64,000 nucleotides of DNA from Pseudomonadota bacterium (lineage in GTDB: Bacteria > Desulfobacterota > Desulfovibrionia > Desulfovibrionales > Desulfovibrionaceae): NCBI GenBank assembly GCA_018817515.1, contig JAHIUD010000073.1, forward strand, positions 1 to 64,000. Direction: 5' to 3'. The translations under genes were made by a program, and so were the position numbers. The notes under the pieces were generated by a model, which had not been told where the DNA came from, did no database searches, and was given only the letters and a program-made list of their open reading frames with translations. Below are positions 15,774-34,441 of this stretch, in pieces. Positions within the stretch are counted from its first letter, which is position 1. Each line of letters begins with the position of its first letter.

Positions 15774-16733
15774 CTACCTCAAATACACATCAACGCTGTC
15801 CATGCGGTTGTGCGCGATCTCGTTCGCCACAGTCTGCTTCGCTTCTTCGTATGAGAGTCCCGCGTCGATGGCCTCGTGCATGCGCGTCTGCGCGAAGCTG
15901 TGCTTCAAGCCATGCGTGCCACGGCCAGGCGCGTACTGCCCAGTCGCCCGCGCCGCTGCTTCGACGGCACGCAGAAAGGTGCGGTACGACGAGGCGAGCT
16001 GACCATGCTTCGTGATGTGCTCCTCCAACTCGTGGTAGATCTTCGGTTGGACGAAGTGTGTGGTCTGTTTGCCTCCTTTCTCGGTGACAACGATGCGCCC
16101 GGCGGCCTCACCGGAGACCGGAACCGTTCCCATGCCGAGCAGGTTGGTGGCTGTGAACGGGTTGCTGCTGCGTGCCGGAGCGCCGACGCCTTCCGCCCTG
16201 CAGCCGGTTTCCCCCATGAGCTTTGCCTGGAGCCGAAGGCCAGCGTCCTGAATGGCTGCGTAGAGCCCCTCCGGGTCGGGATACGCGCGAGTCGTGTAGC
16301 CGCAGGAACGCGGGGAAAGCTCGGTGCGCCAATGCCCCTTCTCTTCAGACAGAACAGTCCGGATATCCGCCGCCGACTCGCCGCCGTGGCGTTCGGCGTA
16401 GACGTCGAGCGCGTGGGAGAGCTTCGTGAGCGCCGAGATTTCACGCTCGATGGTCTGAAAAGAGCCGCCAGCCTCGCGAAGCGCTTGGCCTCTGCCGACG
16501 ATGTACGTCCGGACAAAGCCGGAGACCCGGCGCGCTTGGCGCAAGTCACGCAACCCAGCGCGCTGCAGGAACTCCACGAAACGATGAATGTCACTCCGAT
16601 AGACGCCCCAGGTGCCAATGCCTCGGATGAAGCGCCGGTCAACCGTGCCTTTCTTGCGGCCAATGGCGCGGATGCCGCCAAGAAGCGCCTCGGCTTGCCC
16701 ATGCAAATTTTTGGGCCACCTGTTCGTCCCCAT
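15774..16733 (-). CDS. Divergent tyrosine recombinase / integrase
   Basis: Candidate catalytic residues: MGETGCRAEGV (Arg), HGLKHSFAQ (H-x-x-K/R-H box), AHNRMDSVDVYLR (C-terminal His and Tyr); GGAGGA SD before ATG 16733. Confidence 0.75.
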   Translation of the reverse strand: MGTNRWPKNLHGQAEALLGGIRAIGRKKGTVDRRFIRGIGTWGVYRSDIHRFVEFLQRAGLRDLRQARRVSGFVRTYIVGRGQALREAGGSFQTIEREISALTKLSHALDVYAERHGGESAADIRTVLSEEKGHWRTELSPRSCGYTTRAYPDPEGLYAAIQDAGLRLQAKLMGETGCRAEGVGAPARSSNPFTATNLLGMGTVPVSGEAAGRIVVTEKGGKQTTHFVQPKIYHELEEHITKHGQLASSYRTFLRAVEAAARATGQYAPGRGTHGLKHSFAQTRMHEAIDAGLSYEEAKQTVANEIAHNRMDSVDVYLR

Positions 16734-17514: not shown

Positions 17515-17940
17515 CTACTGTGCCGGGTTTTGTTCCTCGCCGCTCTCCGCCACCACGCCCAGCTTCTCGATGCCCACGCTCTTTATCTCGCCCATGACCT
17601 TGACCACCACGCCGTAGGCCACGTCCTTGTCCGCACGCAGGTAGAGCTGCTTCTTCTGCGTCACCACGAGGTTCGTGAGGTGCTGTCGCAGGTCGTCGAA
17701 GGTGACGCCGTACTCGTCGAGAAAGATGCTGCCGTCCTTCTTGATGGACAGCACTAGGTGATCCGAACCCGCAGGCAGGGTGCGCACGCTGCGCGTCTTG
17801 GGCAGGTCCACGTCCACGCCCTGGGTGAGCATGGGCGCGGTGACCATGAAGATGATGAGCAAGACCAGCATCACGTCCACGAAGGGCGTGACGTTGATTT
17901 CGGCCATGTAGCGGCCCCTGCCCCCTACGCTCGCACCCAT
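17515..17940 (-). CDS. exbD: ExbD/TolR family biopolymer transporter
   Basis: YMAEINVTPFVDVMLVLLIIFMVTAPMLTQGVDVDLPKT is the ExbD/TolR N-terminus. Confidence 0.93.
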   Translation of the reverse strand: MGASVGGRGRYMAEINVTPFVDVMLVLLIIFMVTAPMLTQGVDVDLPKTRSVRTLPAGSDHLVLSIKKDGSIFLDEYGVTFDDLRQHLTNLVVTQKKQLYLRADKDVAYGVVVKVMGEIKSVGIEKLGVVAESGEEQNPAQ

Positions 17941-17951
17941 GGCGCCAGCCC

Positions 17952-18653
17952 CTAGCGGCTGCGTTCCGAGCCGGAGGCCCAGGAAACCTCGCGCTCCACG
18001 CGGTTCAGGAAGGCCCCGGCAAAATTCACCAGCTCGGTCTCCACCTCGCCCAACTCGGAGAGCAGGAAGTTGTACGCGATGGTGGCCGGGATGGCGACAA
18101 CCAGGCCGATGGCCGTTGTCACCAACGCCTCGGAGATGCCCGGGGCTACAGTGGCCAGTGCGGCGGACTGCGACAGGCCGATGGAGTGGAAGGCGTGCAT
18201 GATGCCCCACACCGTGCCGAAGAGGCCTATGAACGGCGCGGCGTTGGCGCAGGTGGCCAGGAAGGACAAGGAACTCGAAAGGTGCTTCATCTCCGCGCTG
18301 ACACCTCTGCGCAGCACACGGCGGAGCGTGTCCGAGGCGAGCATGCGCTTGCGGTCCGGCGCAACGTCAGCAAGTTCCAGCTTGCGGAAAGACTGCATGG
18401 CGAGCAGGCCCACCCGCGCCAGCGGCGAATCCTCCTCACGGCCGACGCTCTGCAGGCCGCAGGCGAGGTCTTCAGCGTCGCTGAACGCCTCGTAGCCGCG
18501 CTCCACCTGCCCCTTGACCCGACGGTAAACGATGAGTTTGTGGACGATGATGGCCCAGCTCCACATGCTCATGAGCGCCAGGAACACCAGAACGATCTGG
18601 ACGCCTAGCGTCGCCCCTAAAATCATGCCCAGAAAACCGGACTCGGGAATCAT
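17952..18653 (-). CDS. exbB: ExbB/TolQ (MotA/TolQ/ExbB proton channel) family
   Basis: LATCANAAPFIGLFGTVWGIMHAFHSIGLSQSAALATVAPGISEALVTTAIGLVVAIPATIAYN. Confidence 0.95.
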   Translation of the reverse strand: MIPESGFLGMILGATLGVQIVLVFLALMSMWSWAIIVHKLIVYRRVKGQVERGYEAFSDAEDLACGLQSVGREEDSPLARVGLLAMQSFRKLELADVAPDRKRMLASDTLRRVLRRGVSAEMKHLSSSLSFLATCANAAPFIGLFGTVWGIMHAFHSIGLSQSAALATVAPGISEALVTTAIGLVVAIPATIAYNFLLSELGEVETELVNFAGAFLNRVEREVSWASGSERSR

Positions 18654-18683
18654 TGTCAGCGCCCCTCCTGGCCCACGCCTTTG

Positions 18684-19484
18684 TTACCGCCCATCGAGCG
18701 CAAAACGTACCGGCAAGGTCATCCAGACCCCCACAGGTGTCCCCTTGAACACGGCAGGTTCAAATTTCCACTTGCGGGCGGCCTCCACGGCCTTCTCCTC
18801 GAAAACCCCCACAGGCTCCGCCGCCTGCACCTGCACCTCGCGCACACCGCCCTCGGCGTCCACGTACAGCCGCAGCGTCACCTGGCCGGAAATGCCGCGC
18901 CGCCGCGCATCCATGGGATAGACAGGCTTCACACGCTTCACCGCCACGGGCATGCGGTCCACGGCCACGCCGCCCTGGCCCGTGCCGCTGCCTACGGACT
19001 GGCCGGAGCCTGTGCCAACCCCGCCGCCTGTTCCGCCTCCTGAACCTCCCCCTGAAGCGCCACCCGCGCTCATCCCCGCCGCCGTGACGGGAGCTGCCTG
19101 CGGCACGGAAGGGGCTGGGGGAGCCTCAACACGCCGCGCCGCAGGGTCGGCTATGGCCACGGCCTGCGGTGTTTTCGGTGCGGCGGCGGAAGCCGCCGCC
19201 GGGGCAGCGGGACTTGGCGAGCCTCCGCCTCCCTTGGGTCCGGCGACCTCCACGAATTCCACCTCCACCAAAGGCTGCGGGACCGGGAGTGGCGCGGCCA
19301 GTTGGGCGCACAGTAGTGCTCCCAGGAAACACACGTGCATGGTGACAGAGACGCCCAGGGCCAGACTGCGCACCCGGATGCTCCGGCCCGTGAAGGGAAG
19401 ACGCAGCCGCGCGCGCGGGTGCTGAGCGGGACGGGAATCGGGGAAGGATTCCGCAGCAGGAGAAAGCGTCAGCGATTCGCTCAT
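18684..19484 (-). CDS. tonB: TonB family energy transducer
   Basis: N-terminal membrane segment, Pro/Gly-rich spacer, C-terminal VKPVYPMDARRRGISGQVTLRLYVDAEGGVREVQVQAAEP. Confidence 0.93.
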   Translation of the reverse strand: MSESLTLSPAAESFPDSRPAQHPRARLRLPFTGRSIRVRSLALGVSVTMHVCFLGALLCAQLAAPLPVPQPLVEVEFVEVAGPKGGGGSPSPAAPAAASAAAPKTPQAVAIADPAARRVEAPPAPSVPQAAPVTAAGMSAGGASGGGSGGGTGGGVGTGSGQSVGSGTGQGGVAVDRMPVAVKRVKPVYPMDARRRGISGQVTLRLYVDAEGGVREVQVQAAEPVGVFEEKAVEAARKWKFEPAVFKGTPVGVWMTLPVRFALDGR

Positions 19485-19498
19485 GGCCGTGTCCCCGG

Positions 19499-20245
19499 TC
19501 AATCCTTGGCCCTGGCCACGCGGCGCACGGCGAACAGGAAGGCCGCAAACCCTGCGGCAAGCAGCAGCCCAAGGGACGTGAGGGGAAGCTCCGCGCCCGT
19601 GGCGGCAGCCCTGGCCGCGCGGGAAGCGTGGGTCAGCGGCAGGCAGAGGAGCAGCCCCTGCGCCCAGTCCGGCAGGCGTTCCACGGGAAAGAACGTGCCA
19701 CCCAGGAAGGCCATGGGCGTGATGACAAAGCTGGTGAGCATGGCCTGGTCGGCGTGGGACTTGATGAGCATGGCCAGGCCCACCGCCAGGGACGCGAAGA
19801 AGAAGCTGTTGAGCATGAGCGCCAGCCAGAACACCGGGCCACACCAGGGATGTACGCCGAACAGCGCCCCCAGGAGCACAGTAAGCACGGAGGCCAGGAG
19901 CCCCCGCGTCATGCCCGCCAGCACCTCGCCCAGCACGTAGCCGCCGGGGGCCACGGGCGCGCTCTGGATCTCGTCGAAGATGCGCCAGTAGAAGCGCGCC
20001 ACGTTGATTTCCCCGGCCACGGACCAGGCCTGGGTCATGCTCGACATGGCCGCCAGCCCCGGCACCAGGAACTGGAGATAGGAAAGCCCGGCGTGGCCCC
20101 CCATGCCTTCCACCTGGCCCAGACCCCAGCCGAAGGCCAGCAGGTACAACAGGGGTGAAACGCACATGGTGGCCAGCATCTTGAGGCCACGGCGGCGCAT
20201 GAGCAGCGCCTCGCGGTAATAGACCGCGCTCCAGCCCTGAATCAT
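19499..20245 (-). CDS. ABC-2 type transporter permease
   Basis: Six hydrophobic segments, YLQFLVPGLAAMSSMTQAWSVAGEINVARFYWRIFDEIQSAPV, overlapping the ATPase gene. Confidence 0.9.
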   Translation of the reverse strand: MIQGWSAVYYREALLMRRRGLKMLATMCVSPLLYLLAFGWGLGQVEGMGGHAGLSYLQFLVPGLAAMSSMTQAWSVAGEINVARFYWRIFDEIQSAPVAPGGYVLGEVLAGMTRGLLASVLTVLLGALFGVHPWCGPVFWLALMLNSFFFASLAVGLAMLIKSHADQAMLTSFVITPMAFLGGTFFPVERLPDWAQGLLLCLPLTHASRAARAAATGAELPLTSLGLLLAAGFAAFLFAVRRVARAKD

Positions 20246-21078
20246 GCGAGCTTCCTCCCCGTAACCCGGTGGAACACGTCCTCCAGGTTCACGCGCCGCA
20301 GGGTGAACGGCCCCGGCAGGCCGGAGCCGAAGGCCTGGGCCTCGTCTCGATGTTGGAAATAGTCGGTCTGCATGCCCTCGCCATTGAGCGCGTCCACGGC
20401 CCAGGCCCCAAGGCCAGCCATGAGCTCCTGCGGTGTGCCCAGCGCCGCCACCGCGCCGCCATGCAGAAAGGCCACGCGGTCGGCCAGAAACTCCGCTTCC
20501 TCAATGTAGTGCGTGGTCAGAAAGATGGTGGTGCCGCCCTCCCTGATGCGCTTCATTACGGTCCAAAGCTTGCGGCGGATTGTCGGGTCCAGGCCCACAG
20601 TGGGCTCGTCGAGGAACAGCACGCGCGGCTCGTGCATCAGCGCACGGGCGATCATCACCCGCCGCCGCTGCCCGCCGGAAAGCTCGCGCACCAGCGAGGC
20701 GCTGCGGTCAGACATCTCCAGGCGCTCCAGGCTCTCGGCCGTGCGGCTGCGGCGCAGCTGCTTCGGCATGCAGAACAGCCGCCCGTGCACTTCCATGTTC
20801 TCCGCAACCGTCAGGTCCTGGTCCAGGTTCACGGCCTGGGCCACCACGCCGCACAGGGCCTTGGCCTGGGTCGGCTCGGCTGCCACGTCCACGCCGCCCA
20901 CCAGCGCCCGCCCGCCATCCGGCAGGGTAAGGCCAGTGAGGATGCGGATGGTGGTGGTCTTGCCCGCGCCGTTTGGCCCCAGGTAGGCGAACAGTTCCCC
21001 GGCGCGCACGTGCAGGTCCACACCCGCAAGCGCTTTCCTTGGGCCGTAGCTCTTGGCGATGCCATCAAGGACTATCAC
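20242..21078 (-). CDS. ABC transporter ATP-binding protein (ABC-2 exporter type)
   Basis: LGPNGAGKTT Walker A, LSGGQRRR signature, LFLDEPTVGLD Walker B. Confidence 0.95.
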   Translation of the reverse strand: MIVLDGIAKSYGPRKALAGVDLHVRAGELFAYLGPNGAGKTTTIRILTGLTLPDGGRALVGGVDVAAEPTQAKALCGVVAQAVNLDQDLTVAENMEVHGRLFCMPKQLRRSRTAESLERLEMSDRSASLVRELSGGQRRRVMIARALMHEPRVLFLDEPTVGLDPTIRRKLWTVMKRIREGGTTIFLTTHYIEEAEFLADRVAFLHGGAVAALGTPQELMAGLGAWAVDALNGEGMQTDYFQHRDEAQAFGSGLPGPFTLRRVNLEDVFHRVTGRKLA

Positions 21079-21095
21079 ACGAACCTCTCTAGTTT

Positions 21096-21132
21096 ATTAA
21101 ATTCGAATACGTGACTAGCATACGAATTTAAT
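21096..21132. promoter_or_regulatory. AT-rich inverted repeat in divergent intergenic region (candidate operator)
   Basis: ATTAAATTCG (21096-21105) ... CGAATTTAAT (21123-21132), perfect 10-bp arms, 17-bp spacer. Confidence 0.6.
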
Positions 21133-21206
21133 CTTGAAAAGTGTCTTGTGCTACGAATTGTGTTTTGGTATGCATGTCTCCGCACGGTGCGCCCCAGGAG
21201 GCAAGC

Positions 21207-22277
21207 ATGCTCAAGACTGAGAAACATTTGACCATAATGGGCTGGGACAGCAGAATATTTGCCGCCTCTTTCCTTGTGCTGCTGGTGCTCTGCGGCTGCA
21301 GCAAGGGGGATGGAGGCGTGGACAAAGGCCAGGGGGTGCGTGTCACCGACGCCACGGGGCGCGAGGTGCTGGTCAAGCGCAACCCCATGCGCGTGGTGAC
21401 GCTGAACAAGAACGCCGCCGAGCTGTTGCGGCTCATGGGCGTCACGGACCGCATCGTGGGCGTTTCCGACTGGATTCCAAAGAATCCGGACTACTGGCCA
21501 GAGCTTGTGAACGCCCGCAACGTGGGCAAGTTCAACGCGCCCGACGAGGAGGCCATCGCCGCGCTCAAGCCCGACCTGGTGCTGTGCTACCAGAACTCGC
21601 CCGGCCCGGGTTTTGACGAGAAGATGGCTGCGGCAGGCATCCAGGTGCTGCGGCTGGAGCTGTACCGAATCAGCGCCTTGCCGCGCGACGTGGAGGGCCT
21701 GGGGCGCATCTTCGGGCGCGAGGACAAGGCCCGCGAGTACCTGGACTGGCTGAAGGCGCGCATGGATGAGGTGGCGCGGCGCGTGGCCGCCAGCAAAAGC
21801 CGCCCGGACGTGTACATCGAGGGCTATTCCGACTTCGCCGCCTGCGGCAACAGCTCCGGCATGCACGAGCGCCTGGAGTTCGCGGGCGGGCGAAACATTT
21901 CCGAGGCCCTGCAGCCCGCCAACACCCCGGTATCGCCGGAGTGGGTGCTGGAGCGCCAGCCCTTAGCCGTGGTCAAGATGAGTTCCCAGAACGGTTGTTA
22001 CACCCACGAAGGCCCCGAGGGCATGGTGGCTCAGCGCGCGGCCCTGCTCGCCCGCACGGGCTGGAACAAGACCCCGGCGGGCAAGGCCGGGCGCGTATTC
22101 CTCATGACCACGGACGTCACCAGCGGTGCGGCCAGCGTGGTGGGCATCGCCTGGCTGGCCAAGTGGCTGCACCCGGACACCTGCGCGGACCTGGACCCCA
22201 ACCTCTGGCATCGCGAATTCATCGAGCGCTTTCAGGGCAGGCCCTGGCGCGGCGTGTATGTCCATCCGGAGCGGTAG
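21207..22277 (+). CDS. FecB/BtuF-type periplasmic substrate-binding lipoprotein
   Basis: Lipobox LLVLCGCSKG, then VRVTDATGREVLVKRNPMRVVTLNKNAAELLRLMGVTDRIVGVSDW; AGGAGG SD. Confidence 0.92.
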   Translation: MLKTEKHLTIMGWDSRIFAASFLVLLVLCGCSKGDGGVDKGQGVRVTDATGREVLVKRNPMRVVTLNKNAAELLRLMGVTDRIVGVSDWIPKNPDYWPELVNARNVGKFNAPDEEAIAALKPDLVLCYQNSPGPGFDEKMAAAGIQVLRLELYRISALPRDVEGLGRIFGREDKAREYLDWLKARMDEVARRVAASKSRPDVYIEGYSDFAACGNSSGMHERLEFAGGRNISEALQPANTPVSPEWVLERQPLAVVKMSSQNGCYTHEGPEGMVAQRAALLARTGWNKTPAGKAGRVFLMTTDVTSGAASVVGIAWLAKWLHPDTCADLDPNLWHREFIERFQGRPWRGVYVHPER

Positions 22278-23298
22278 GGTGGAGGCATCGGAGGCCAAGG
22301 CGGGCATCGAGGCCTATGGCGCGCTCACGGGCAGGCGCTCGGCGCGCATCGCGGCGCTGGGGGCGCTTTTGAGTCTTGCGGCGCTGTTCTCGCTGGTGGT
22401 GGGCAGCAGCTCGACCGGCATCATGGACGTGCTTCGCGTGGGCCTGGACGGGGTCATCTTCTGGGAGCTTCGGGTGCCGCGCGTCATCATGGGGCTTTTG
22501 GTGGGCTCCGGCTTGGCCGTGGGCGGGGCCGTGACTCAGGCCGTGCTGCGCAACCCGCTGGCTTCGCCCTTCACCCTGGGCGTGGCTTCGGGCGCGGGCT
22601 TCGGCGCAGCGCTGGGCATTGTGCTGGCCGGCGCCGTTTCCAAATGGGCCGTGGCGGGCGGGGCCTTCAGCTTCGCACTCATCACGGCGCTGTTCATCCT
22701 GGGCGTGGCGCGCATGAAGAGCGCCACCCCGGAGACCTTGGTGCTCGCGGGCGTGGCCATCATGTTCCTGTTCTCCGCCGGAACCTCGCTTTTGCAGTTC
22801 CTGGGCACGGAGCAGCAGATCCAGTCCATCGTGTTCTGGAGCTTCGGCAACCTCTCGCGGGCCTCCTGGACCGACATTCTCATCGCCGCAGGCATGATTT
22901 TGCCTGCCCTTCCCGCGCTCTTCCTGCGCGCCTGGGACTTGAACCTGCTGCTCGCCGGCGACGAGATGGCCGCCAGCCTGGGCGTGCGCGTGGAACGTCT
23001 GCGCCTCACCGCCCTGCTGTTGGCGGCGCTCATGACCGCCGGGGCCATCTGCTTCACCGGGGTCATCGGCTTCATCGGCCTGGTGGGGCCGCACGTGGCG
23101 CGACTCATGGTCGGCGGCGACCACCGCTTCCTGCTCCCGGCCTCGGCGCTGTCCGGCGCGCTCCTGGTGCTGGTGTCCGATTGCCTGGGCCGCACGCTCT
23201 TCGCCCCGCACATGGTGCCCATCGGCATCGTCACGGCCTTCCTGGGCGTGCCCTTCTTCTTCGGGCTCCTCATGCGCCGCAAACGGGAGTTCTGGTGA
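22258..23298 (+). CDS. FecCD-type ABC transporter permease
   Basis: LRVPRVIMGLLVGSGLAVGGAVTQAVLRNPLASPFTLGVASGAGFGAA; IGFIGLVGPHVARLMVGGDHR. Confidence 0.93.
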   Translation: MSIRSGRVEASEAKAGIEAYGALTGRRSARIAALGALLSLAALFSLVVGSSSTGIMDVLRVGLDGVIFWELRVPRVIMGLLVGSGLAVGGAVTQAVLRNPLASPFTLGVASGAGFGAALGIVLAGAVSKWAVAGGAFSFALITALFILGVARMKSATPETLVLAGVAIMFLFSAGTSLLQFLGTEQQIQSIVFWSFGNLSRASWTDILIAAGMILPALPALFLRAWDLNLLLAGDEMAASLGVRVERLRLTALLLAALMTAGAICFTGVIGFIGLVGPHVARLMVGGDHRFLLPASALSGALLVLVSDCLGRTLFAPHMVPIGIVTAFLGVPFFFGLLMRRKREFW

Positions 23299-24071
23299 TG
23301 CTCACTGCCCGAAACATCTTCTACGACTACCCGGAGCGGCAAGTGCTGCGCGGGGTGTCCCTTTCCCTTGCCCCGGGCGAGGTGCTGGCCGTGCTCGGCC
23401 CCAACGGCGCGGGCAAGTCCACGCTTTTGCGCTGCCTGGCCGGTGCGCTTTCGCCAAAGGGTCAGGTGGAGTTGGATGGCCGCGCCTTGGAATCCGTGCC
23501 GCCTGCGGAGCGCGCCCGGCTCTTGGCCTTTGTGCCGCAGCACGTGCCGCCGCGCCTGCCCATGACCGTGTTCGAGGCCGTGCTCTTGGGCCGCAGGCCT
23601 TACCTGTCCTGGCGGCCCAGGCCGCAAGACCTGGAGGCGGCCTGGGAGGCCCTGTCGCTCATGGGCCTGGGGGAGCTGGCGCAGCGGGAGTTCTCGGAAA
23701 TTTCCGGCGGCCAGCGTCAGAAGGCCGCCCTGGCCCGCGCCCTGGCCCAGGAGAGCCGTCTGCTGGTCATGGACGAGCCCACGAGCAGTCTGGACCTCAA
23801 GCACCAGTTGCAAGTCATGACCGTGCTGTGCGGCCTGGCCGAGGAGCGCGACACCGGGGTGATTCTGGCCGTGCACGACCTGAACCTGGCCGCGCGCTTC
23901 GCCCACCGGGTCATCCTGCTGCATGACGGACGTGTGGAGGCCGACGGCCCCCCGTCCGAGGCGCTCACCGAGGAGAGCATCCGCCGGGTTTACGGCGTGG
24001 AGGTGCTGCGCCTCGAGGCCGGTGCCGGAACCATGTTTTTCCCCATGTCCGCAGCAAGCGGGACAGCCTGA
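23298..24071 (+). CDS. FecE/BtuD-type ABC transporter ATP-binding protein
   Basis: LGPNGAGKSTLLRCLAG, ISGGQRQKAALARAL, LLVMDEPTSSLD; start overlaps the permease stop. Confidence 0.93.
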   Translation: MLTARNIFYDYPERQVLRGVSLSLAPGEVLAVLGPNGAGKSTLLRCLAGALSPKGQVELDGRALESVPPAERARLLAFVPQHVPPRLPMTVFEAVLLGRRPYLSWRPRPQDLEAAWEALSLMGLGELAQREFSEISGGQRQKAALARALAQESRLLVMDEPTSSLDLKHQLQVMTVLCGLAEERDTGVILAVHDLNLAARFAHRVILLHDGRVEADGPPSEALTEESIRRVYGVEVLRLEAGAGTMFFPMSAASGTA

Positions 24072-24101
24072 ACACGAATATCCCTTTGGAGGAGATGAGA
24101 T

Positions 24102-26174
24102 ATGAGATGGAGTGCCCCCTTTACCGCCTTTGGCCTGGGCCTGGGACTGATGCTTGGCCTTACCGTTTGCCTGGCCTTCCCCGCCCTTGCGGAAGAACCC
24201 GCGCAGAAGCAGGCCCCGAAGTCCGGCCGTCTGGATGAGGTGCTGGTCACCGCCACCAGCCATGAGTCACGCGTGGACGCCGTGCCCAACGCGGTGACGG
24301 TCATCACCCGCGAGCAGATCGACCAGATGGTGGCCCCCACCACCATCGACATCCTGAAGAACGCCGCTGGCGTCGAGGTCTACAACGCCCGTGGGCCGCT
24401 CTCGTCGAGCACTTACAACCGCGTCATCATGCGCGGCCAGGGCAGCAACCCCGCACGCATCCTGGTGATGCTCAACGGCATCCCCCAGGCGGGCGGCCAG
24501 AACGGCGACTTCGAGTGGGGTTTCATCAATCCACGCGACGTGGAGCGCATCGAGATCGTGCGCGGCCCCGGCTCAGCGCTTTATGGTTCACAGGCCATGG
24601 GTGGCGTCATCAACATCCTTACCCGCAAGCCAACCGAGGCCGACGGCAAGACCGTGTTGGAAACCAAGTACGGCTCGCTGAACACCATGAGCGCCTCGGC
24701 TTCCCATTCCCGCAAGGAGGGTGACTGGGGATTTTACGGCTCGGCAACAATGGGCGGCACCGACGGCTACCAAGTGGTCCCAGGCGACCAGGTCGTCTAC
24801 AAGGCGCAGGGGGCCACGAACTCCGACAAGCTGCGCAGCACCAACGACTGGGGCCGCGGAGTGGTGAGCTACGACATCGACAAGACTTCCGGCCTGACCC
24901 TGAACATGATGCATGGGCACTTCCTGAACCAGGGCATGTACAATTTCATGCATGAGTTCACGGCGTTCGAAATGGCCAAAAAACAGGCGGACCTGAGCTA
25001 CGCCAAGAAATTCACAGGAGGCGAGGTCCTGGCCTACGCTTCCGCCGCTTACCAGTATTCCACCTACGACGGCACCAGCAGCAGCGCCCCGTACAACAAC
25101 ATGGCCAAGACGGGCGAATCACCGGCCTACCAGCGCGACTACCAGAGCGGCCTCAAGGCCACCATGGACGTGGGCCTGGGCAACACCCTGAGCACCGGCA
25201 TGGACCTCAAGCGCACCAGCTACGACCGCCGCTACGACAACTATGGCATGGCGGGCAGCAACTATGGCTCCGCCGGCGGCGACGCCCAGGTCTGGGGCGC
25301 TTTTTTGCAGGACGAGCTGAACCTTTTTGACGGCCGCCTCCTTATCACCCCGGGCGTGCGCTACGAGAACACCAGCCTGTTCGATGGCTATGCCGAGCAA
25401 CTGCCCACGGTGACACGGCGCGAGATGTCCCGCACCCTGCTGCGCTCCTTCACCGGACGCGTGGGGGCACGGCTGAACGTCGTGGATTGGCTGTCCTTCC
25501 GCTCGGCCTTTGGCGAGGCCTTCCGCGCGCCCACATTGAGCGAGCTCTACGGCGCCAGCCGCATCGGCACCAGCACCTACTACGGCAACACCGACCTCAA
25601 GCCTGAGCGTATGCGCTCCCTTGAGGGCGGTGTGGACATCACCCCGCTGGACGACCTGCGCATATCGCTCACGGTCTACAAGAACCATGCGGTGGACTAC
25701 ATCGACAACGTGCTGGTGGCCGCAAACACTTACAACAAGAAGAACATCGGCACCGTGGACACCGGCGGCTTCGAGGGCGAGATATCCTACACCTTCCTGG
25801 AGCACTGGCGCAGCTTCCTGAACCACCAGCAGTGCGACCCCAAGCTCATGACCGGAACTTACGTGGGCCAGCGCATCATCGGCACGCCCACCATGACCAC
25901 TTCCATCGGCCTCGCCTTCAGCGATCCGAATCTGTTCAACCTGTCCGTGGTGAACCGCCGCGTGGGACGCATCTACAACAACTCGGCCAACAGCCAAGTC
26001 TACGGCAACTATGACGTGGTGGACGCCAAGCTGTCCAAAGCCTTTGCGCTTGAAGCCTCAAAGCTGGAACTCTCGCTTGAGGTGTCCAACCTGTTCGACG
26101 TGCGCGTACGCGAGACCTCCGGCACACAGGCCCCCGGCAGCCTCTACACCGCCGGCGTTGCCTGGATATTCTAA
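24102..26174 (+). CDS. TonB-dependent outer-membrane receptor
   Basis: Signal peptide; RLDEVLVTATSHESRVDAVPNAVTVITREQID TonB box and plug; RIEIVRGPGSALYGSQAMGGVINILTRKP; C-terminal GVAWIF. Confidence 0.95.
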   Translation: MRWSAPFTAFGLGLGLMLGLTVCLAFPALAEEPAQKQAPKSGRLDEVLVTATSHESRVDAVPNAVTVITREQIDQMVAPTTIDILKNAAGVEVYNARGPLSSSTYNRVIMRGQGSNPARILVMLNGIPQAGGQNGDFEWGFINPRDVERIEIVRGPGSALYGSQAMGGVINILTRKPTEADGKTVLETKYGSLNTMSASASHSRKEGDWGFYGSATMGGTDGYQVVPGDQVVYKAQGATNSDKLRSTNDWGRGVVSYDIDKTSGLTLNMMHGHFLNQGMYNFMHEFTAFEMAKKQADLSYAKKFTGGEVLAYASAAYQYSTYDGTSSSAPYNNMAKTGESPAYQRDYQSGLKATMDVGLGNTLSTGMDLKRTSYDRRYDNYGMAGSNYGSAGGDAQVWGAFLQDELNLFDGRLLITPGVRYENTSLFDGYAEQLPTVTRREMSRTLLRSFTGRVGARLNVVDWLSFRSAFGEAFRAPTLSELYGASRIGTSTYYGNTDLKPERMRSLEGGVDITPLDDLRISLTVYKNHAVDYIDNVLVAANTYNKKNIGTVDTGGFEGEISYTFLEHWRSFLNHQQCDPKLMTGTYVGQRIIGTPTMTTSIGLAFSDPNLFNLSVVNRRVGRIYNNSANSQVYGNYDVVDAKLSKAFALEASKLELSLEVSNLFDVRVRETSGTQAPGSLYTAGVAWIF

Positions 26175-26200
26175 CAGCCCAAGAGGGGGAGGCCCGGACC

Positions 26201-29200
26201 ATGAAAATCACCGCCATCGTCTGGAACAGCCACGCAGAGGGCCTGGCCAGGGCCGCCGAGAGCCTGCCCTGGCTCACCCTGCGCCTGTACCCGGCCAAGA
26301 GCCTGGAGGACAGCCCGGAGCGCCGGGCCCAGGCCATGGCCGACCTGCGCGGCTCGGACGCCGCCTTCCTGTACCGGGCCACGGAGCCGTTCTGGGACGA
26401 GATGGAGGCGGGACTGAAGGAAGCGGGCAAGAGCGTGCCCACAGTCTGCCTGAGTTACGACCCCTCGCTCTGGGGTCTTTCCACCGCCCGTCCAGAGCTG
26501 GTGCAAGACGCCCATCGCTACATGACCTTCGGCGGCCTTCATAATGTGGCGAACTTGCTCAAGGCCTTGGCACGGGAGTTCGGCGGACCGGAGTTCACGG
26601 AGCTGGACGCGCCGCCCCCGGCCCCGGTGCCTTGGGAAGGTCTGTGGCACTCCTGCATGCCAACATCCGGCGGGGCGAGACGGCACTTTGCCAGCCTGGG
26701 CGAATATCTGGGCTGGTACAAGGGGCATTGCGCCGGGCGGCTCATGGAAAGCGGCCCCTGGGTGGGCCTGGTGGTGGGCCGCCACTACTGGGTGGGCGAA
26801 GCTCTGGAGGTGGAGGAACTGCTCATCAGCGACCTTGAGGAGCAGGGCCTGCGCGTCATCCCCATCTTCACTAACACAATCAAGGACGACGCTCTGGGCA
26901 ACAAGGGCGCGCTGGGTTGGCTGCGCGAGGTATTTCTAGCCGAGGGCGCGCCGAAGGTGTCCGCTGTGGTCAAGCTGGTGAGCTTCTTCTTAGGCCACAC
27001 ACGAAGCGGCGCAGGCAATCAGGAAGACGCCGCCGCTTCTGGCGTGGCGGCCCTGAAGGAGTTGGGCGTGCCGGTGTTCCAGCCCGTGTTCTCGTCGAGC
27101 AAATCCGTGGAGCAGTGGCAGGACGACCCGCAGGGCCTGGGCAGCGAGGTGGCCTGGAGCGTGGCCATGCCGGAGTTCGAGGGCGTCATTGAACCCATCT
27201 ACCTGGGCGGCGGCAGCAGGTACGAGAGCGCGGCCACCGGGGCCAGCCTGGAGCGCCGCGTGCCCGTGGCGGAGCGCAGCCAGCGCCTGGCCCGCCGCGT
27301 GGCGGCCTATGTCCGGCTTGCGGATAAGCCCGTGAGCGAGCGCAAAGTCGCCTTCATCCTGCACAACGACCCCTGCGCCTCGGTGGAGGCCACCGTGGGC
27401 GGCGCGGCCAAGCTGGACAGCCTGGAGAGCGTGGCGCGGATTCTTGCCGCCATGAAAGCTCAAGGCTATAGCGTGAACCCGCCGGAAAGCGGCGCGGAGC
27501 TTATCGAGACCATCATGGCCCGCAAGGCCATCAGCGAATTTCGCTGGACAACGGTGGACGAGATCGTCGCCAAGGGCGGGGCGCTGGCCCGGCTCTCGCT
27601 GGGCACGTACCTGGGCTGGTGGCGGCACTACCCGGAGAAGGTGCGCGCGCGCATAGCCGAGGCCTGGGGCGAGCCTCCGGGCCAGGAAGTGAACGGCGTG
27701 CCCCCGGCCATGCTGCACGAGGGCAAAATCGTCATCACCGGCGTGACCTACGGCAATGCGGCCATCTGCGTGCAGCCCAAGCGCGGCTGCGCTGGGCCGC
27801 GCTGCGACGGCCGGGTGTGCAAGATTCTCCACGACCCGGACATTCCGCCACCGCATCAGTATCTCGCCACCTATCGCTGGCTACAGGACGGCGCAGACGG
27901 TTTCGGCGCGGACGTGCTCATCCACGTGGGCACCCACGGCAATATGGAGTTCCTGCCGGGTAAGAGCGTGGGCCTGTCCGCCTCCTGCCTGCCGGACCTG
28001 GCCCTGCACGAGGTGCCGCACCTGTACATCTACAACGCCGACAACCCGCCCGAGGGCACCATCGCCAAGCGCCGCAGCTACGCCGCGCTGGTGGACCACA
28101 TGACCACGGCGCTGACCCACACAGAGCTCTACGAAGAGCTGGACGAGCTGGGCAGGCACTTGGCCGAATGGGAACAGGCCAAGGACTCCGACAAGACCCG
28201 CGCCCACATGCTGGAGCACCTGGTGCGCGACGTGGCCGAGAAGGCCAACCTGCTGTCCGGCATCAGGGGCGTCGCAGACATGGACTTCCCCCGGCTGGCC
28301 ACGGCCCTGCACGAGTCCCTGGACCTCATCCGCGGGACGCAGCACGACGATGGCATGCACGTGTTCGGCAGCGCGCCGGAGGGCGAGCGCCTGAACGCCT
28401 TTATCTGGTCCATCCTGCGCTACGACGCGGACGACCCGCGCTCCCTGCGGCGCAGCCTCTGCCGCATGTTGGGGTTGAATCTGGACACCCTGCTGGCCGA
28501 GCCGGGGGCCGTGGACCAGCGCCTGAAGGTCAGCAACTCTGAGCTGCTGGCGGACGTGGAGCGCCTGGGCCGGGAGTGCTGCGGCGCGGCGCTCACCTGC
28601 GCGGACGAGGCGGGCTTCGTCCAGGCTGTGCTGGCTCTTGCGGGCGAGCGCCTCGTGGGCGGAGCTTCTGCCGACGACCTGCCCGCCATCTTCCTGCGCA
28701 TCCAGGACATGAAACGCCGCGTGGACGAATCCAAGGAAATCGACGCGCTGCTCACCGGCTGCGCGGGGCGCTATATCGAGCCGGGGCCGTCGGGCATTAT
28801 CACTAGAGGGCGCGAGGACATCCTGCCCACGGGCCGCAACTTCTACTCGCTGGACCCCAGGCGGCTTCCCACACGGGCCGCGCACATGGTGGGCATGCGC
28901 CTGGCCGACGCCATCATCGACAAGCATGTGCGCGAGGAAGGCCGCGTGCCCGAGAACGTGGCCATGTTCTGGATGTGCAACGACATGATGTGGGCCGACG
29001 GCGAGGGCATGGGGCAAATCTTCCACCTCATCGGCGTGCGGCCCCTTTGGAAGAGCAACGGCCACGTGAAGGGCTTCGAGGTCATCCCCATCGCAGAACT
29101 GGGCCGTCCCCGCGTTGACGTGACCATCCGGGTGTCCGGTCTGCTGCGCGACAGCTTCCCGGAACAGATGGGTCTCGTGGACGAGGCCATCCACCACGTG

Positions 29201-30130
29201 GCCGGACTGGACGAGGCCGACGAGGACAACTTCGTGCGTAAGCACGCGCGCGCCACCCTGGAGAAGTCCGGGGAGACCGGCGTTGACGCATGGCGCAAGT
29301 CCACACTGCGCCTGTTCTCCTCCAAGCCCGGCACCTACCAGGCCGGGGTGAACCTGGCCGTGTACGCCTCGGCCTGGCAGACGGAAGCCGACCTGGCGGA
29401 CATCTTCGTGTACTGGAATTCCTACGCCTACGGCAAAGACGTGTTCGGCGAACAGCGGCCCAGACAGCTTGAGGCGGCGCTTTCCACCGTGGACGTGAGC
29501 TACAACAAGGTGGTGAGCGACGAGCACGACCTGTTCAACTGCTGCGGCTACTACGGCACCCACGGCGGCATGACGGCGGCGGCCCGCCAGTTCGGCGGCG
29601 GCGAGGTGAAGGGCTACTACGGCGACACCCGCGAGCCGGGCCGCGTGCAGGTGCGCGACCTGGCCGACGAGATACGCCGCGTGGTGCGCACGCGCCTTTT
29701 GAACCCGGCCTGGATCGAGGGCATGAAGCGCCACGGCTACAAGGGCGCGGGCGACATGGCCAAGCGCGTGGGCCGCGTGTACGGCTGGGAGGCCACTACC
29801 CGCGAGGTGGACGACTGGATCTTCGACGACATCGCCAAGACCTTTGTCATGGACGAGGAGAACCGTGAGTTCTTCCGCCAGCACAACCCCTGGGCGTTGG
29901 AGGAAATCGGCCGCAGGCTCCTGGAGGCCCAGTCGCGTGGCCTGTGGCAGGCCGACCCCGAGGTGCTGGAAGCCCTCAAGGAGTCGTACCTGGAGATGGA
30001 GGGCTGGCTCGAAGAGGACATGGGCGAGGTCACGGGCGACTTTCAGGGCGGCAGCGTGGACATCATGCGGCCCGAAGATGTGGAGCAGTGGCAGGAAATG
30101 ATGCGGGCCATGAAGGCCAAGCCCGCCTAA
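26201..30130 (+). CDS. CobN/ChlH/HmuS-family metal chelatase large subunit
   Basis: 1309 aa; VHGNMEFLPGKSVGLS-type motif (HVGTHGNMEFLPGKSVGLSASCLPDL), YIYNADNPPEGTIAKRRSYA, GVRPLWKSNGHVKGFEVIPIAELGRPRVDVTIRVSGLLRD. Confidence 0.93.
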   Translation: MKITAIVWNSHAEGLARAAESLPWLTLRLYPAKSLEDSPERRAQAMADLRGSDAAFLYRATEPFWDEMEAGLKEAGKSVPTVCLSYDPSLWGLSTARPELVQDAHRYMTFGGLHNVANLLKALAREFGGPEFTELDAPPPAPVPWEGLWHSCMPTSGGARRHFASLGEYLGWYKGHCAGRLMESGPWVGLVVGRHYWVGEALEVEELLISDLEEQGLRVIPIFTNTIKDDALGNKGALGWLREVFLAEGAPKVSAVVKLVSFFLGHTRSGAGNQEDAAASGVAALKELGVPVFQPVFSSSKSVEQWQDDPQGLGSEVAWSVAMPEFEGVIEPIYLGGGSRYESAATGASLERRVPVAERSQRLARRVAAYVRLADKPVSERKVAFILHNDPCASVEATVGGAAKLDSLESVARILAAMKAQGYSVNPPESGAELIETIMARKAISEFRWTTVDEIVAKGGALARLSLGTYLGWWRHYPEKVRARIAEAWGEPPGQEVNGVPPAMLHEGKIVITGVTYGNAAICVQPKRGCAGPRCDGRVCKILHDPDIPPPHQYLATYRWLQDGADGFGADVLIHVGTHGNMEFLPGKSVGLSASCLPDLALHEVPHLYIYNADNPPEGTIAKRRSYAALVDHMTTALTHTELYEELDELGRHLAEWEQAKDSDKTRAHMLEHLVRDVAEKANLLSGIRGVADMDFPRLATALHESLDLIRGTQHDDGMHVFGSAPEGERLNAFIWSILRYDADDPRSLRRSLCRMLGLNLDTLLAEPGAVDQRLKVSNSELLADVERLGRECCGAALTCADEAGFVQAVLALAGERLVGGASADDLPAIFLRIQDMKRRVDESKEIDALLTGCAGRYIEPGPSGIITRGREDILPTGRNFYSLDPRRLPTRAAHMVGMRLADAIIDKHVREEGRVPENVAMFWMCNDMMWADGEGMGQIFHLIGVRPLWKSNGHVKGFEVIPIAELGRPRVDVTIRVSGLLRDSFPEQMGLVDEAIHHVAGLDEADEDNFVRKHARATLEKSGETGVDAWRKSTLRLFSSKPGTYQAGVNLAVYASAWQTEADLADIFVYWNSYAYGKDVFGEQRPRQLEAALSTVDVSYNKVVSDEHDLFNCCGYYGTHGGMTAAARQFGGGEVKGYYGDTREPGRVQVRDLADEIRRVVRTRLLNPAWIEGMKRHGYKGAGDMAKRVGRVYGWEATTREVDDWIFDDIAKTFVMDEENREFFRQHNPWALEEIGRRLLEAQSRGLWQADPEVLEALKESYLEMEGWLEEDMGEVTGDFQGGSVDIMRPEDVEQWQEMMRAMKAKPA

Positions 30131-30148
30131 CATACCGGAGCGAGAACC

Positions 30149-31183
30149 TTGAAGAACCATACCTTCGCCTACCCCTTCTCGGCCATCGTGGGCCAGGACC
30201 TCATGAAGGAGGCCCTGCTGCTCAACGTGGTGAACCCGAAGCTCGGCGGCGTGCTCATCCGCGGCGAAAAGGGCACGGCCAAGTCCACGGCGGTGCGCGC
30301 CCTGGCCAGCCTGCTGCCGGAAATCGACGTGGCCGAGGGTTGCCCCTTTGCCTGCAAGCCGGATGGAACCGATTTGTGTGCAGCCTGTACGGCCAAGGCC
30401 CAGGCCGGGACGCTCGTTCCCACTCGCCGCCGCACCCGTGTGGTGGACCTGCCCGTGGGCGCAACCGAGGACCGCGTTCTCGGCACCCTGGACCTTGAGG
30501 CCGCCATCAAGAAGGGCGAGAAGCACTTCGAGCCGGGCATCCTGGCCGAGGCGCACCGGGGCATCCTCTACGTGGACGAGGTGAACCTGCTGGACGACCA
30601 CATCGTGGACGTACTGCTGGACGCTGCGGCCATGGGGGTCAACACCGTGGAGCGCGAGGGGGTGAGCTTCAGCCACCCGGCGCGGTTCGTGCTCGTGGGC
30701 ACCATGAACCCGGAGGAAGGCGAGCTGCGGCCCCAATTGCTCGACCGCTTCGGCCTGTGCGTGCAGGTGGAGGGCATCCTGGACATCGACAACCGCGTGG
30801 AGGTGGTCAAGCGCCGCGCAGCCTATGAGGAAAACCCGGCGGGCTTCGCCGAGACCTGGGCGGACAAGGAACACGCCGTGGCCCAGCGTGTGGAGCGTGC
30901 CCGTGCCCTTCTGCCCCGCGTGGGCTTTCCGGACGAGCTCTTGCGCCTGGTGGCCCAGATAGCCGTGGACATGGGCGTGGACGGCCACAGGGCGGACCTG
31001 GTGATGATGAAGACCGCCAAGACCCTGGCCGCGCTGGACGGGCGCGACATCGCCACGCGCGAGGACGTGGGTCGCGCCGCCGAGCTGGCCCTGCCCCACC
31101 GCATGCGCAAGAAGCCCTTCCAAGACATCGGCCTGGACAAGACTGCCCTGGCCGGCAGCATGGAGAAGGGCCTTGCAAAATAA
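30149..31183 (+). CDS. Mg-chelatase ChlI-like AAA+ ATPase
   Basis: YPFSAIVGQDLMKEALLL, GEKGTAKSTAVRAL Walker A, YVDEVNLLDDHIVDVLLDAAA, MNPEEGELRPQLLDRFGL; likely TTG start. Confidence 0.92.
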   Translation: MKNHTFAYPFSAIVGQDLMKEALLLNVVNPKLGGVLIRGEKGTAKSTAVRALASLLPEIDVAEGCPFACKPDGTDLCAACTAKAQAGTLVPTRRRTRVVDLPVGATEDRVLGTLDLEAAIKKGEKHFEPGILAEAHRGILYVDEVNLLDDHIVDVLLDAAAMGVNTVEREGVSFSHPARFVLVGTMNPEEGELRPQLLDRFGLCVQVEGILDIDNRVEVVKRRAAYEENPAGFAETWADKEHAVAQRVERARALLPRVGFPDELLRLVAQIAVDMGVDGHRADLVMMKTAKTLAALDGRDIATREDVGRAAELALPHRMRKKPFQDIGLDKTALAGSMEKGLAK

Positions 31184-33269
31184 ACGGGCCGTCAGGCCGC
31201 AGGTCTACCCGTTCAGCGCCATCGTGGGCCAGGAGCGGCTCAAGCGCGCTTTGACCGCCTGCGCCGTGTGCCCCTCAATTGGCGGCGTGCTGGCGCGAGG
31301 ACAAAAAGGCACGGCAAAGTCCACGGCTGTGCGTGCCCTAGCCGCACTCCTACCGCACATCGAGGTGGTGCGCGGCTGCCCGTTTTCTTGCGCGCCTGAA
31401 GGCCCGCACTGCCCGGCCTGTGCGACGCGCATCGCAGAGGGCGAGACGCCCGCCACGAACTGGCGGCCCGCCCGGCTGGTGGATCTGCCCCTTGGAGCCA
31501 CCGAGGACCGCGTGTCCGGTTCCCTGGATCTGGAAGCGGCCATCCGCCAAGGCCGCAAGCAGCTTGAGCCGGGCCTCTTGGCCCGCGCCCACCGGGGCGT
31601 GCTCTACGTGGACGAGGTGAACCTGCTTTCGGACCACTTGGTGGACATTTTGCTCGACGCCGCCAGCATGGGAGAGAACGTGGTGGAGCGCGAGGGCATC
31701 AGCTTCCGGCACCCGGCCCAGCTCATCCTCATCGGCACCATGAATCCTGAGGAAGGGGAACTGCGGCCCCAACTGCTCGACCGCTTCGGCCTGTGCGTGG
31801 AGGTGGCAGCCCCGCTGGACCTGAACGAGCGCATGGAGGTGCTGCGCCGCCGCGAGGCTTTCGACGCCGATCCAGCCAGCTTCGCTGCGCAATGGGCTGA
31901 AGAGGAACGCCGAATGGCGCGCGCCATCGTGGAGGCCCGTCGCGCACTGCCGCAGGTGCGCATCCCGGCTCCGCTTCTGCGGCAAGCCACGGAACTCTGC
32001 CTGGAGGCCTGCGTGGCCGGACACCGGGCGGACATCGCCCTGCGCCTGACAGCCCGCACCCTTGCCGCCCTTGCCGGACGCGAGGACGTGCGCGCGGTCG
32101 ATCTGGACGAGGCAGCCGAACTGGTGCTGCTGCACCGCCGCCGCATGCCGCCGCCCCCCGCTCCGCCAGAGCAGGAGAAGGAAAAAGAACAGAAGCAGGA
32201 GGACCCCGAACACCAGCACGAGCATGAGCTAGAGCAGCAACAAGAGCAGCAGCCCGAGCCGCAACAAGCGGAACAGCAGCCAGAGGACGCGCGCACCGGC
32301 GAGGACGAAGGCGAGATGGAGGAGTCGCCGCCGAAAGACGAGCCGGAAGACGAGCCGGGAGACGGCGAATCCGAGGCCACGGGCAGCCCCGCAGCCCTGG
32401 AGACCATCTTCCCCGTGGGTGCGGCCTTCCGCGTGAAACCCATCGTGTACAAGAAGGACCGCGTGGTGCGCACCGGCTCTGGTCGGCGCACACGCTCGCG
32501 CACCAGCCAGAAGTCCGGGCGCTACGTCAAGGCGCGCCACAACCCGGCGCCCACGGACCTGGCCCTGGACGCCACCCTGCGCGCTGCCGCCCCGCACCAG
32601 TTCCGGCGTAGGCAAGAACTCTCCTCGCCGCAGGACATCGCCGTGCTCGTACGCGCTTCGGACCTGCGCCAGCGCGTACGCGAGAAGCGCATGGGGCACT
32701 TCATCGTCTTCGTGGTGGACGCCAGCGGCAGCATGGGCGCGGGCAAACGCATGGTGGAGACCAAGGGCGCGGTGCTCTCGCTTCTGCTCGACGCCTACCA
32801 AAAACGCGACAAGGTCGGACTGGTGGCCTTCCGGGGCCAGGGCGCGTCCGTGCTGTTGCCGCCCACCTCAAGCGTGGACCTTGCCTACAAGCTGCTGGAG
32901 GAACTGCCCACGGGCGGCAAGACCCCGCTGGTGCACGGCTTGTCCCTGGGCCACGAGCTGCTCCAGCGTCAACTGCGGCGCGACCCGGCGAGCTTCCCAG
33001 TGTTGGTGCTTATTTCCGACGGCAAGGCCAACGTGAGCCTGGCGGGAGGAAAGCCGCTGGCCGAGGCGAAGCTGGCGGCCCGAACCATCGCCGAAGACCC
33101 GCGCATTCGAACGCTCGTGGTGGACGTGGAAAAGGCCGGGCTCATCCGCTTCGGTTTGGCCGAGGGCCTGGCGGCAGAAATGGGGGCGCAGTATTTCCGC
33201 ATTGAGGACTTGCACGCTCGCGACCTAGTGGATGTGCTGCGGCGCGAGGTGCTGGAATCTGCGCCGTGA
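31173..33269 (+). CDS. ChlI-ChlD fusion (AAA+ domain, Q/E/P-rich linker, VWA domain)
   Basis: GQKGTAKSTAVRAL Walker A; Glu/Gln/Pro-rich hinge; VWA MIDAS VVDASGSMGAGKRM. Matches the putative cobaltochelatase ChlID architecture. Confidence 0.92.
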   Translation: MQNKRAVRPQVYPFSAIVGQERLKRALTACAVCPSIGGVLARGQKGTAKSTAVRALAALLPHIEVVRGCPFSCAPEGPHCPACATRIAEGETPATNWRPARLVDLPLGATEDRVSGSLDLEAAIRQGRKQLEPGLLARAHRGVLYVDEVNLLSDHLVDILLDAASMGENVVEREGISFRHPAQLILIGTMNPEEGELRPQLLDRFGLCVEVAAPLDLNERMEVLRRREAFDADPASFAAQWAEEERRMARAIVEARRALPQVRIPAPLLRQATELCLEACVAGHRADIALRLTARTLAALAGREDVRAVDLDEAAELVLLHRRRMPPPPAPPEQEKEKEQKQEDPEHQHEHELEQQQEQQPEPQQAEQQPEDARTGEDEGEMEESPPKDEPEDEPGDGESEATGSPAALETIFPVGAAFRVKPIVYKKDRVVRTGSGRRTRSRTSQKSGRYVKARHNPAPTDLALDATLRAAAPHQFRRRQELSSPQDIAVLVRASDLRQRVREKRMGHFIVFVVDASGSMGAGKRMVETKGAVLSLLLDAYQKRDKVGLVAFRGQGASVLLPPTSSVDLAYKLLEELPTGGKTPLVHGLSLGHELLQRQLRRDPASFPVLVLISDGKANVSLAGGKPLAEAKLAARTIAEDPRIRTLVVDVEKAGLIRFGLAEGLAAEMGAQYFRIEDLHARDLVDVLRREVLESAP

Positions 33270-33327: not shown

Positions 33328-33741
33328 ATGCGCAAGACCATCCAGTTTCTGACCCTGCTGGCGCTGCTGCTGCTCTCGTCCACCGCCTTCGCCGGAGCCA
33401 AAGACCCTCTGTTCATCAATCTCACCAGCGACGACTCGCACCGGGCGCTCATGGCCATCAGCTTTGGCCAGGGGCAAATGGAGCGGGGCCACCCCCTCAC
33501 TGTGTACCTGAACGACAAGGCCGTGCTGGTGGCGAGCAAGAAAAACGCCGCGCAGTTCGCAGAGCAGCAGAGGATGCTCTCCGGCATCGTCGCCAAGGGT
33601 GGCACCGTGCTGGTCTGCCCCATGTGCAGCAAGAAGTTCGGCGTGGCCGAGGCGGACTTCATCACTGGGGCCAAGCTCACCAGCCCGGACATCACCGGGC
33701 CTGCCCTCTTCAAGGACAACACAAAGACCCTGTCCTGGTAA
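33328..33741 (+). CDS. DsrE-like protein with signal peptide
   Basis: TIQFLTLLALLLLSSTAFAGAKD signal; DSHRALMAISFGQGQMERGHPLTVYLNDKAV...VCPMCSKKFGV resembles DsrE/DsrF fold; GGAGG SD. Confidence 0.75.
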   Translation: MRKTIQFLTLLALLLLSSTAFAGAKDPLFINLTSDDSHRALMAISFGQGQMERGHPLTVYLNDKAVLVASKKNAAQFAEQQRMLSGIVAKGGTVLVCPMCSKKFGVAEADFITGAKLTSPDITGPALFKDNTKTLSW

Positions 33742-33808: not shown

Positions 33809-34075
33809 CTAGTGCTTGTGCTCGTGCTTTTCCTTCTCATGCTCCGTGTGTTCGTGGTCATGCGGGCCGTGCTCATGGGCATGGTCATGCCCGTGGCCCG
33901 CGCCGTCCGCGTGCTCGTGCTCGTGCGGGTGCTTGTGCTCATGCTTGTGCCCGTGGGCATGGGCGTGCTCGTGCGGGTGGGAATGCTCGCCCTGGCCGGG
34001 GTGCGTGTGCGGATGCTCGTGGCTGTGGGTGTGCTCGTGCGCGTGGTCGTGGGAATGCTCGTGGTCGCCCTTCAT
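33809..34075 (-). CDS. Extremely histidine-rich small protein
   Basis: ATG 34075 preceded by AAGGAGG at 5-nt spacing; 36 His in 88 aa, no Cys. Confidence 0.7.
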   Translation of the reverse strand: MKGDHEHSHDHAHEHTHSHEHPHTHPGQGEHSHPHEHAHAHGHKHEHKHPHEHEHADGAGHGHDHAHEHGPHDHEHTEHEKEKHEHKH

Positions 34076-34441
34076 GATGGCCTCCTTGGTGGTCATGGTT
34101 CATCACTTCTGGTTCAAATGTAATGCCGCGAGCAGCGCTGGGATAGCCCGCACGCAATTCTTTGTCGTGTGCAGGGTGTGGGCGCATTTGTGAAACCGTG
34201 CCACGGCGGACCATACGGCCCGGCACAAGCTTTCGCAGCCAGCGTCGGGCCTTGTGATAATGGACTCTTGCGGTCGATTCGGGCTAGCCTCATGTGGGGT
34301 TCTGGCTGGGAAAAAGGGGGATTGAGTCCGCAGCCTGCCCCCGAAACCTGAACTCGAGCGACTACTTTCGCTCGGGCTCAGGGGAGTTATGGCAAGATAT
34401 GAGAATCGTATTTTTTGCCCAGATCCAAATCATTAGAGCTC

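Follow-up and report, generated by a model that had tools for sequence, protein, structure and literature searches.

A six-cysteine clade of CobN-type chelatases in a candidate nickel-acquisition locus of anaerobes

CobN-type chelatase subunits belong to several described systems. Aerobic CobN, a class I chelatase, acts with CobST or ChlI/ChlD. HmuS, a heme de-chelatase encoded in the hmu operons of Bacteroidota in linkage with a TonB receptor, works with NADH and without ChlI/ChlD (PMC12583661). In Pseudomonas aeruginosa, PA1922-PA1925 associates a TonB receptor, a CobN-like protein, and ExbD within a metal-limitation regulon (PMC4542158). In Methanothermobacter marburgensis, a protein annotated as CobN1 is abundant, together with NikR1, only under nickel limitation (Nature 2025 proteome, PMC12350162). 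Here, we analyze a 64,000-nucleotide stretch of DNA (the window; contig JAHIUD010000073.1) from the genome of a sulfate-reducing bacterium of the Desulfovibrionaceae, in which positions 17515–33269 harbor a CobN-ChlI-ChlID locus combined with TonB-dependent import and ATP-binding cassette (ABC) transporters. We propose with moderate confidence that this locus is a NikR-type nickel-acquisition module of anaerobes and that CobN-ChlI-ChlID acts on a nickel chelate taken up by the cell, the ligand of which is probably a tetrapyrrole. Since the gene set is associated with the nickel regulator NikR in related microbes, it is probably a route to nickel.

The locus consists of two divergent arms separated by 128 bp, and the genes within each arm overlap or are separated by gaps of at most ~45 bp. 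Profile searches (Pfam/NCBIfam) combined with refinement of coordinates confirmed the gene set and divergent arrangement described in an earlier note on this DNA, all genes being present at their place in intact frames devoid of internal stops. The order is exbD-exbB-tonB-ABC-2 permease-ABC-2 ATPase on the minus strand and binding protein-FecCD-ATPase-TonB receptor-CobN-ChlI-ChlID on the plus strand, as follows (AAA+ and VWA designate the domains, and MIDAS the metal ion-dependent adhesion site).

17515–17940 or 17515–17907 (start at 17940 or 17907), minus strand: ExbD (PF02472, 3.7e-30)
17952–18653, minus strand: ExbB (MotA_ExbB PF01618, 1.2e-35)
18684–19484, minus strand: TonB (TonB_C PF03544, 5.7e-20)
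19499–20245, minus strand: ABC-2 exporter permease, NodJ/DrrB-like (ABC2_membrane PF01061, 6.8e-25)
20242–21078, minus strand: ABC-2 exporter ATPase, nearest to DrrA/NodI (ABC_tran PF00005, 5.5e-32; TIGR01188, 266 bits, under the cut-off)
21079–21206, no strand: divergent promoter region, with an inverted repeat at 21096–21132
21207–22277, plus strand: periplasmic binding lipoprotein, FecB/BtuF-like (Peripla_BP_2 PF01497, 2.9e-24)
22258–23298, plus strand: FecCD/BtuC-type permease (PF01032, 2.9e-88)
23298–24071, start ATG at 23298, plus strand: FecE/BtuD-type ATPase (ABC_tran PF00005, 5.9e-31)
24102–26174, plus strand: TonB-dependent receptor (beta-barrel PF00593, 6.8e-45; Plug PF07715, 6.3e-25)
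26201–30130, plus strand: large chelatase subunit of CobN type, member of the six-cysteine clade (CobN-Mg_chel PF02514, E = 0, 1230 bits)
30149–31183, plus strand: ChlI AAA+ subunit (TIGR02442, 519 bits; TIGR02030, 433 bits)
31173–33269, plus strand: ChlI-ChlD fusion, ChlID, with AAA+ and VWA domains and a MIDAS (TIGR02442, 807 bits, over the cut-off)

A Walker-A-like GxKGTAKS motif and the YVDE motif are retained in both ChlI and ChlID, and ChlID also retains the MIDAS motif DASGS at residue 516. The operon encodes the three components of a class I ATP-dependent chelatase, namely a CobN/ChlH-fold large subunit that has the conserved cleft histidines, an AAA+ ChlI, and a ChlD with VWA and MIDAS. 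These families and motifs support the earlier proposal that the locus combines metal-complex import and an ATP-driven class I chelatase with its full set of subunits. That the locus, unlike a separate btu locus, has no cobalamin riboswitch was also borne out, as the Rfam scan of the window returned only two matches, the cobalamin riboswitches at 39229–39431 (minus strand) and 39670–39859 (plus strand). ARAGORN detected no tRNA in the window.

In a tree of 39 sequences, the window CobN fell in a clade of 22 proteins from anaerobic bacteria and methanogens (support of 100), which is sister to aerobic CobN and sits on a long stem; HmuS-type proteins, BchH, and Methanosarcina paralogues were placed elsewhere. 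Six cysteines (C392, C530, C535, C540, C1114, and C1115) are invariant in 76/76 members of the clade, whereas the 17 comparison proteins all lack cysteine at these columns. Every full-length member in a further set of sampled loci kept all six, and a second CobN (35% identical) is devoid of five of them. The clade signature includes a five-residue insertion, CAGxRCDGxVC. The core histidines H544, H552, H575, and H579 are conserved in the window CobN, as they are in aerobic CobN, and the cleft residue H579 is common to HmuS. An AlphaFold2 model of residues 380–1290 (predicted local distance difference test score of 85, predicted template-modeling score of 0.89), in which loop 530–540 is of low confidence, gave CobN, ChlH, and HmuS as the best matches among solved structures. 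Template-modeling scores were 0.83 over the modelled body for Mycobacterium tuberculosis CobN (7c6o) and 0.81 for HmuS (9p4s). As modelled, the window CobN has a class I chelatase fold.

The window clade differs from aerobic CobN by the six cysteines and the insertion, by its linkage to importers rather than to cob genes, and by its occurrence in anaerobes. The differences from HmuS extend to the operons, since the HmuS partners are MotA/ExbB plus DUF2149, whereas the window operon includes ChlI and ChlID and profile searches found no DUF2149 gene among the locus genes. HmuS itself has a methionine-rich insertion, Met-79, and His-254 (structure 9d26), and the six cysteines are absent from those HmuS-type proteins that we examined. 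The link to HmuS drawn in the earlier note was accordingly not supported: the window CobN is placed with support outside the HmuS branch, is accompanied by ChlI/ChlID, and has clade-specific cysteines. Within the limits of the literature collection that was searched, we found no report of the six-cysteine clade, of its cysteines, or of a nickel-tetrapyrrole importer. The present analysis provides an anaerobe CobN clade defined by a simple signature, a conserved gene neighborhood of that clade common to bacteria and archaea, and a metal hypothesis with independent regulatory support.

Several variants of the large subunit were encountered. CobN is split into two open reading frames (ORFs) near residues 800–830 in several relatives (L224, L226, and others), and the six cysteines are kept across the pieces in L224 and L226. 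Locus L222 encodes a six-cysteine CobN and, ~9 kb apart, a second CobN (~35% identity). A plasmid of Runella slithyformis (L137, 104–10821) encodes an HmuS-type CobN that is accompanied by ExbB and DUF2149 and flanked by genes for a TonB receptor and a urease accessory protein and by hypF/hypC/hypD/hypE; judged by these neighbors, this is a nickel context for an HmuS-type CobN.

CobN is encoded by a single copy in the source genome. A CobN match of any kind was found in 16/247 genomes of the Desulfovibrionales, and 11 of the 247 encode a full-length member of the window kind. In all 11, the genes for the binding protein, FecCD, the ATPase, the receptor, ChlI, and ChlID are linked, although the position of the binding protein gene varies, being sometimes at the opposite end of the operon; the ABC-2 pair was found in genera g1, g10, and g28. 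Linkage persists down to ~53% CobN identity and is largely kept in other phyla and in archaea, a pattern beyond chance. At the phylum level, 64/395 genomes gave a match at E ≤ 1e-200, CobN proteins of the 36–39% identity kind being counted among them. A scan of 84,980 species genomes identified 345 encoding loci, the best 80 of which come from methanogens, sulfate reducers, Nitrospirota, Firmicutes such as Desulfofundulus and Clostridium ragsdalei, and one Deferribacterales genome. Fifty longer loci, drawn from archaea and several phyla, were examined within 12 kb of cobN; the importer ATPase or permease was detected in 43, ChlI/ChlID in 41, the receptor in 23, and the ABC-2 permease in 21. 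The ABC-2 permease cluster was present in 40/91 related loci. The ABC-2 pump, listed as part of the locus in the earlier note, is therefore a genuine recurring member of the module. A CbiQ-type energy-coupling factor transporter occurs in one group of related loci, which comprises archaeal loci and some bacterial ones. The single-contig genome G113 contains two near-identical copies of the module (L030 and L031) located 1.76 Mb apart. In L183 (genome G192, 7600–9972), the module is adjoined by a riboswitch-like sequence, an ORF resembling a binding protein, and a CbiK whose start resembles a signal peptide.

The evidence for nickel comes from related loci. The nikR gene lies inside four of them (L064, L101, L118, and L228), with preservation of the nickel ligands H, H-x-H, and C. 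The gene order is nikR-operator-receptor-fecBCD-cobN-chlID-exbBD in L101 and fecBCD-cobN-chlID-nikR in L118, and L228 contains cobN-chlI-chlID-nikR. In genome G000, nikR is present elsewhere in the genome than the locus. The NikR operator has the form GTGTTAC-N13/14-GTAACAC, in either orientation. A whole-genome search with the exact pattern gave no match, and a weight matrix was therefore built from published delta-proteobacterial sites (Rodionov et al., 2004, PMC545781). An earlier operator test had module-adjoining promoters among its controls, and the regions were redefined for a test of 62 loci. In the latter test, the module promoters of 16/62 loci scored 11 bits or more with the matrix, whereas column-scrambled matrices gave 3.0 such loci on average and 7 at most (40 trials). 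Two loci (L057 and L058) have a perfect 14-of-14 site directly upstream of cobN, behind TTGACA. Among 13 further loci, three reached 11 bits (as did 11% of the scrambles) and two reached 15 bits (0.5% of 200 scrambles). The M. marburgensis proteome adds circumstantial evidence for nickel, the likeness of CobN1 to the window protein being known by annotation rather than by clade placement. The earlier note had left open the metal of its metallotetrapyrrole; the import and chelatase parts of that proposal stand, and the NikR genes and operators in related loci now point to nickel.

In the genus of the source genome, the word TAGCATA in the divergent promoter is conserved in 6/6 genomes, and the word CTTGTGCTACG, located 26 bp from TAGCATA, is mostly conserved. 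TTGTGC-17-TATGCA is a possible sigma-70 promoter. A genus-conserved block, TTGTGCTACG...TATGC, was considered as an operator and dropped; it was not counted as NikR evidence because its 17-bp spacing fits a sigma-70 promoter.

According to the proposed mechanism, the receptor driven by TonB-ExbBD and the FecBCD-type ABC importer would transport a nickel chelate to the cytoplasm, the ligand being most likely a tetrapyrrole. In this compartment, CobN-ChlI-ChlID, whose large subunit has the six clade-specific cysteines in or near conserved cleft motifs, would move the nickel, most likely removing it, at the expense of ATP hydrolysis by ChlI/ChlID. The spent ligand would possibly leave via the ABC-2 pump. 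Import, ATP-driven handling, and ligand export would follow from the gene families and their linkage; for nickel as the metal in this genome, a tetrapyrrole as the ligand, removal as the direction, and the cargo of the pump, we infer one step further. The module shares with NikR-regulated nickel uptake (NikMQO, nickel TonB receptors) the operator type, in a subset of loci, and a nickel-limitation logic. It differs from such systems by the presence of a class I chelatase and an exporter, which implies processing of a nickel chelate rather than free-ion uptake. If correct, this proposal accounts for a chelatase in B12-independent contexts and suggests how nickel could be supplied in sulfidic sediments, in which little of the free metal is available. 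A narrower version, which we consider tentative and rather doubtful, is that the clade forms a nickel-tetrapyrrole de-chelatase that strips nickel from F430 or sedimentary nickel porphyrins with ATP, the ring being discarded; this would provide anaerobes with a route for recycling nickel from tetrapyrroles.

Several observations weigh against nickel acquisition. Class I chelatases acting with ChlI/ChlD or CobS/CobT insert metals, and removal is for this reason not the default reaction. The best NikR-type site at the window promoter was not significant (p = 0.39) in a test that admitted a spacing of 12, added after inspection of L030 by eye, later tests being limited to spacings of 13 and 14. 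In the genus promoters, conservation of NikR-like sequence is limited to two half-site words, the 26-bp spacing of which is unusual, and one of them may be part of the sigma-70 promoter. A clear NikR site is absent from most related loci. The operator statistics count partly related loci as independent, and the scrambled-motif control takes no account of phylogeny. Metagenome-assembled genomes are among the sources of the four nikR-linked loci, and the source genome has a separate CbiM/NikM-type transporter. Finally, the NCBIfam matches of the receptor are under the cut-offs, and receptor and binding-protein profiles do not assign a ligand.

Four alternatives were considered, in decreasing order of likelihood: insertion of nickel into a nickelophore made by the cell, handling of cobalt or a corrinoid, de-chelation of heme, and zinc. 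According to the first, which we judge unlikely, CobN-ChlI-ChlID inserts nickel into the cell's own tetrapyrrole metallophore, or the apo form is exported by the ABC-2 pump and re-imported with nickel. The NikR evidence is equal for this mechanism and for the import of a nickel chelate, insertion is the known reaction of ChlI/ChlID-coupled class I chelatases, and the exporter occurs in 21 of the 50 longer loci. However, the importer is more constant (43 of the 50), and no gene for tetrapyrrole or ligand biosynthesis recurs in the gene clusters of related loci. The module could otherwise import a corrinoid or a cobalt chelate for insertion or removal of cobalt by CobN-ChlI-ChlID. This appears improbable, although the window CobN exceeds the cut-off of the cobaltochelatase model NF004646 (1741 versus 1468 bits), canonical aerobic CobN forms the sister clade, and the FecCD permease is BtuC-like. 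CbiK was present in every genome tested (17/17), with or without the locus, indicating that cobalt insertion for B12 is independent of the window CobN. Members of the window kind are moreover rare in the order, as noted above, and NikR is linked to related loci. No cobalamin riboswitch was found directly upstream of the module in the 13 related loci scanned, two such riboswitches being located elsewhere in related loci (L033 and L129), and CobN was linked neither to cob genes nor to a cobalamin riboswitch in the window and related loci. The sister clade that contains the window CobN is fully supported and separate from the canonical cobaltochelatases, a placement among which, together with proven cobalt insertion, the earlier note had regarded as fatal to its proposal. 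Together, these results support the conclusion that the window CobN is not the B12 cobaltochelatase.

Removal of iron from heme or another iron-porphyrin, as catalyzed by HmuS, is in our opinion quite improbable. In its favor, the NCBIfam family that best matches the receptor is that of heme/hemoglobin receptors (TIGR01785, 201 bits), the importer ATPase is nearest to a heme ABC transporter model, CobN-like proteins of Bacteroides release iron from heme (PMC6460266, PMC12583661), and those of Methanosarcina barkeri respond to the form in which iron and sulfur are supplied (PMC10846266). In contrast, the receptor and ATPase matches are under the cut-offs (317 bits for TIGR01785; the B12 receptor family TIGR01779 scored 166 bits for a cut-off of 600), and the separate clade, the six extra cysteines, and the presence of ChlI/ChlID in the operon all argue against heme. 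There was also no Fur-like site according to the E. coli consensus, from which delta-proteobacterial Fur boxes differ. The least likely alternative, to which we give very little credence, is zinc or another metal. PA1922-PA1925, which is controlled by Zur, shows that an operon for a receptor, CobN, and ExbD can belong to a zinc regulon (PMC4542158), but FecBCD, ABC-2, and ChlI/ChlID components have not been reported for that system. In ten Desulfovibrionales promoters, neither Desulfovibrio Zur boxes nor E. coli-type Fur consensus sites were matched more closely than in shuffled promoters, and nikR, as described above, lies inside four related loci.

The remainder of the window provides additional observations. 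Left of the locus, a large serine recombinase (11972–14227) is followed by an ORF without family match (15774–16733), and this region is possibly a mobile element. On the other side, a DsrE-like gene (33328–33741) adjoins a gene for a 95-residue protein containing 36 histidines (33809–34096), a pairing conserved in the closest genomes; by its composition, the latter protein is a possible metal store. Genes for a chromate-efflux-type transporter and an ArsR-type regulator (34442–35993) also adjoin the locus. The divergent riboswitches at 39229–39859 belong to a separate B12 locus, one being upstream of a minus-strand ORF similar to anaerobic ribonucleotide reductase (36898–39207) and the other upstream of a receptor-like ORF at 39905.

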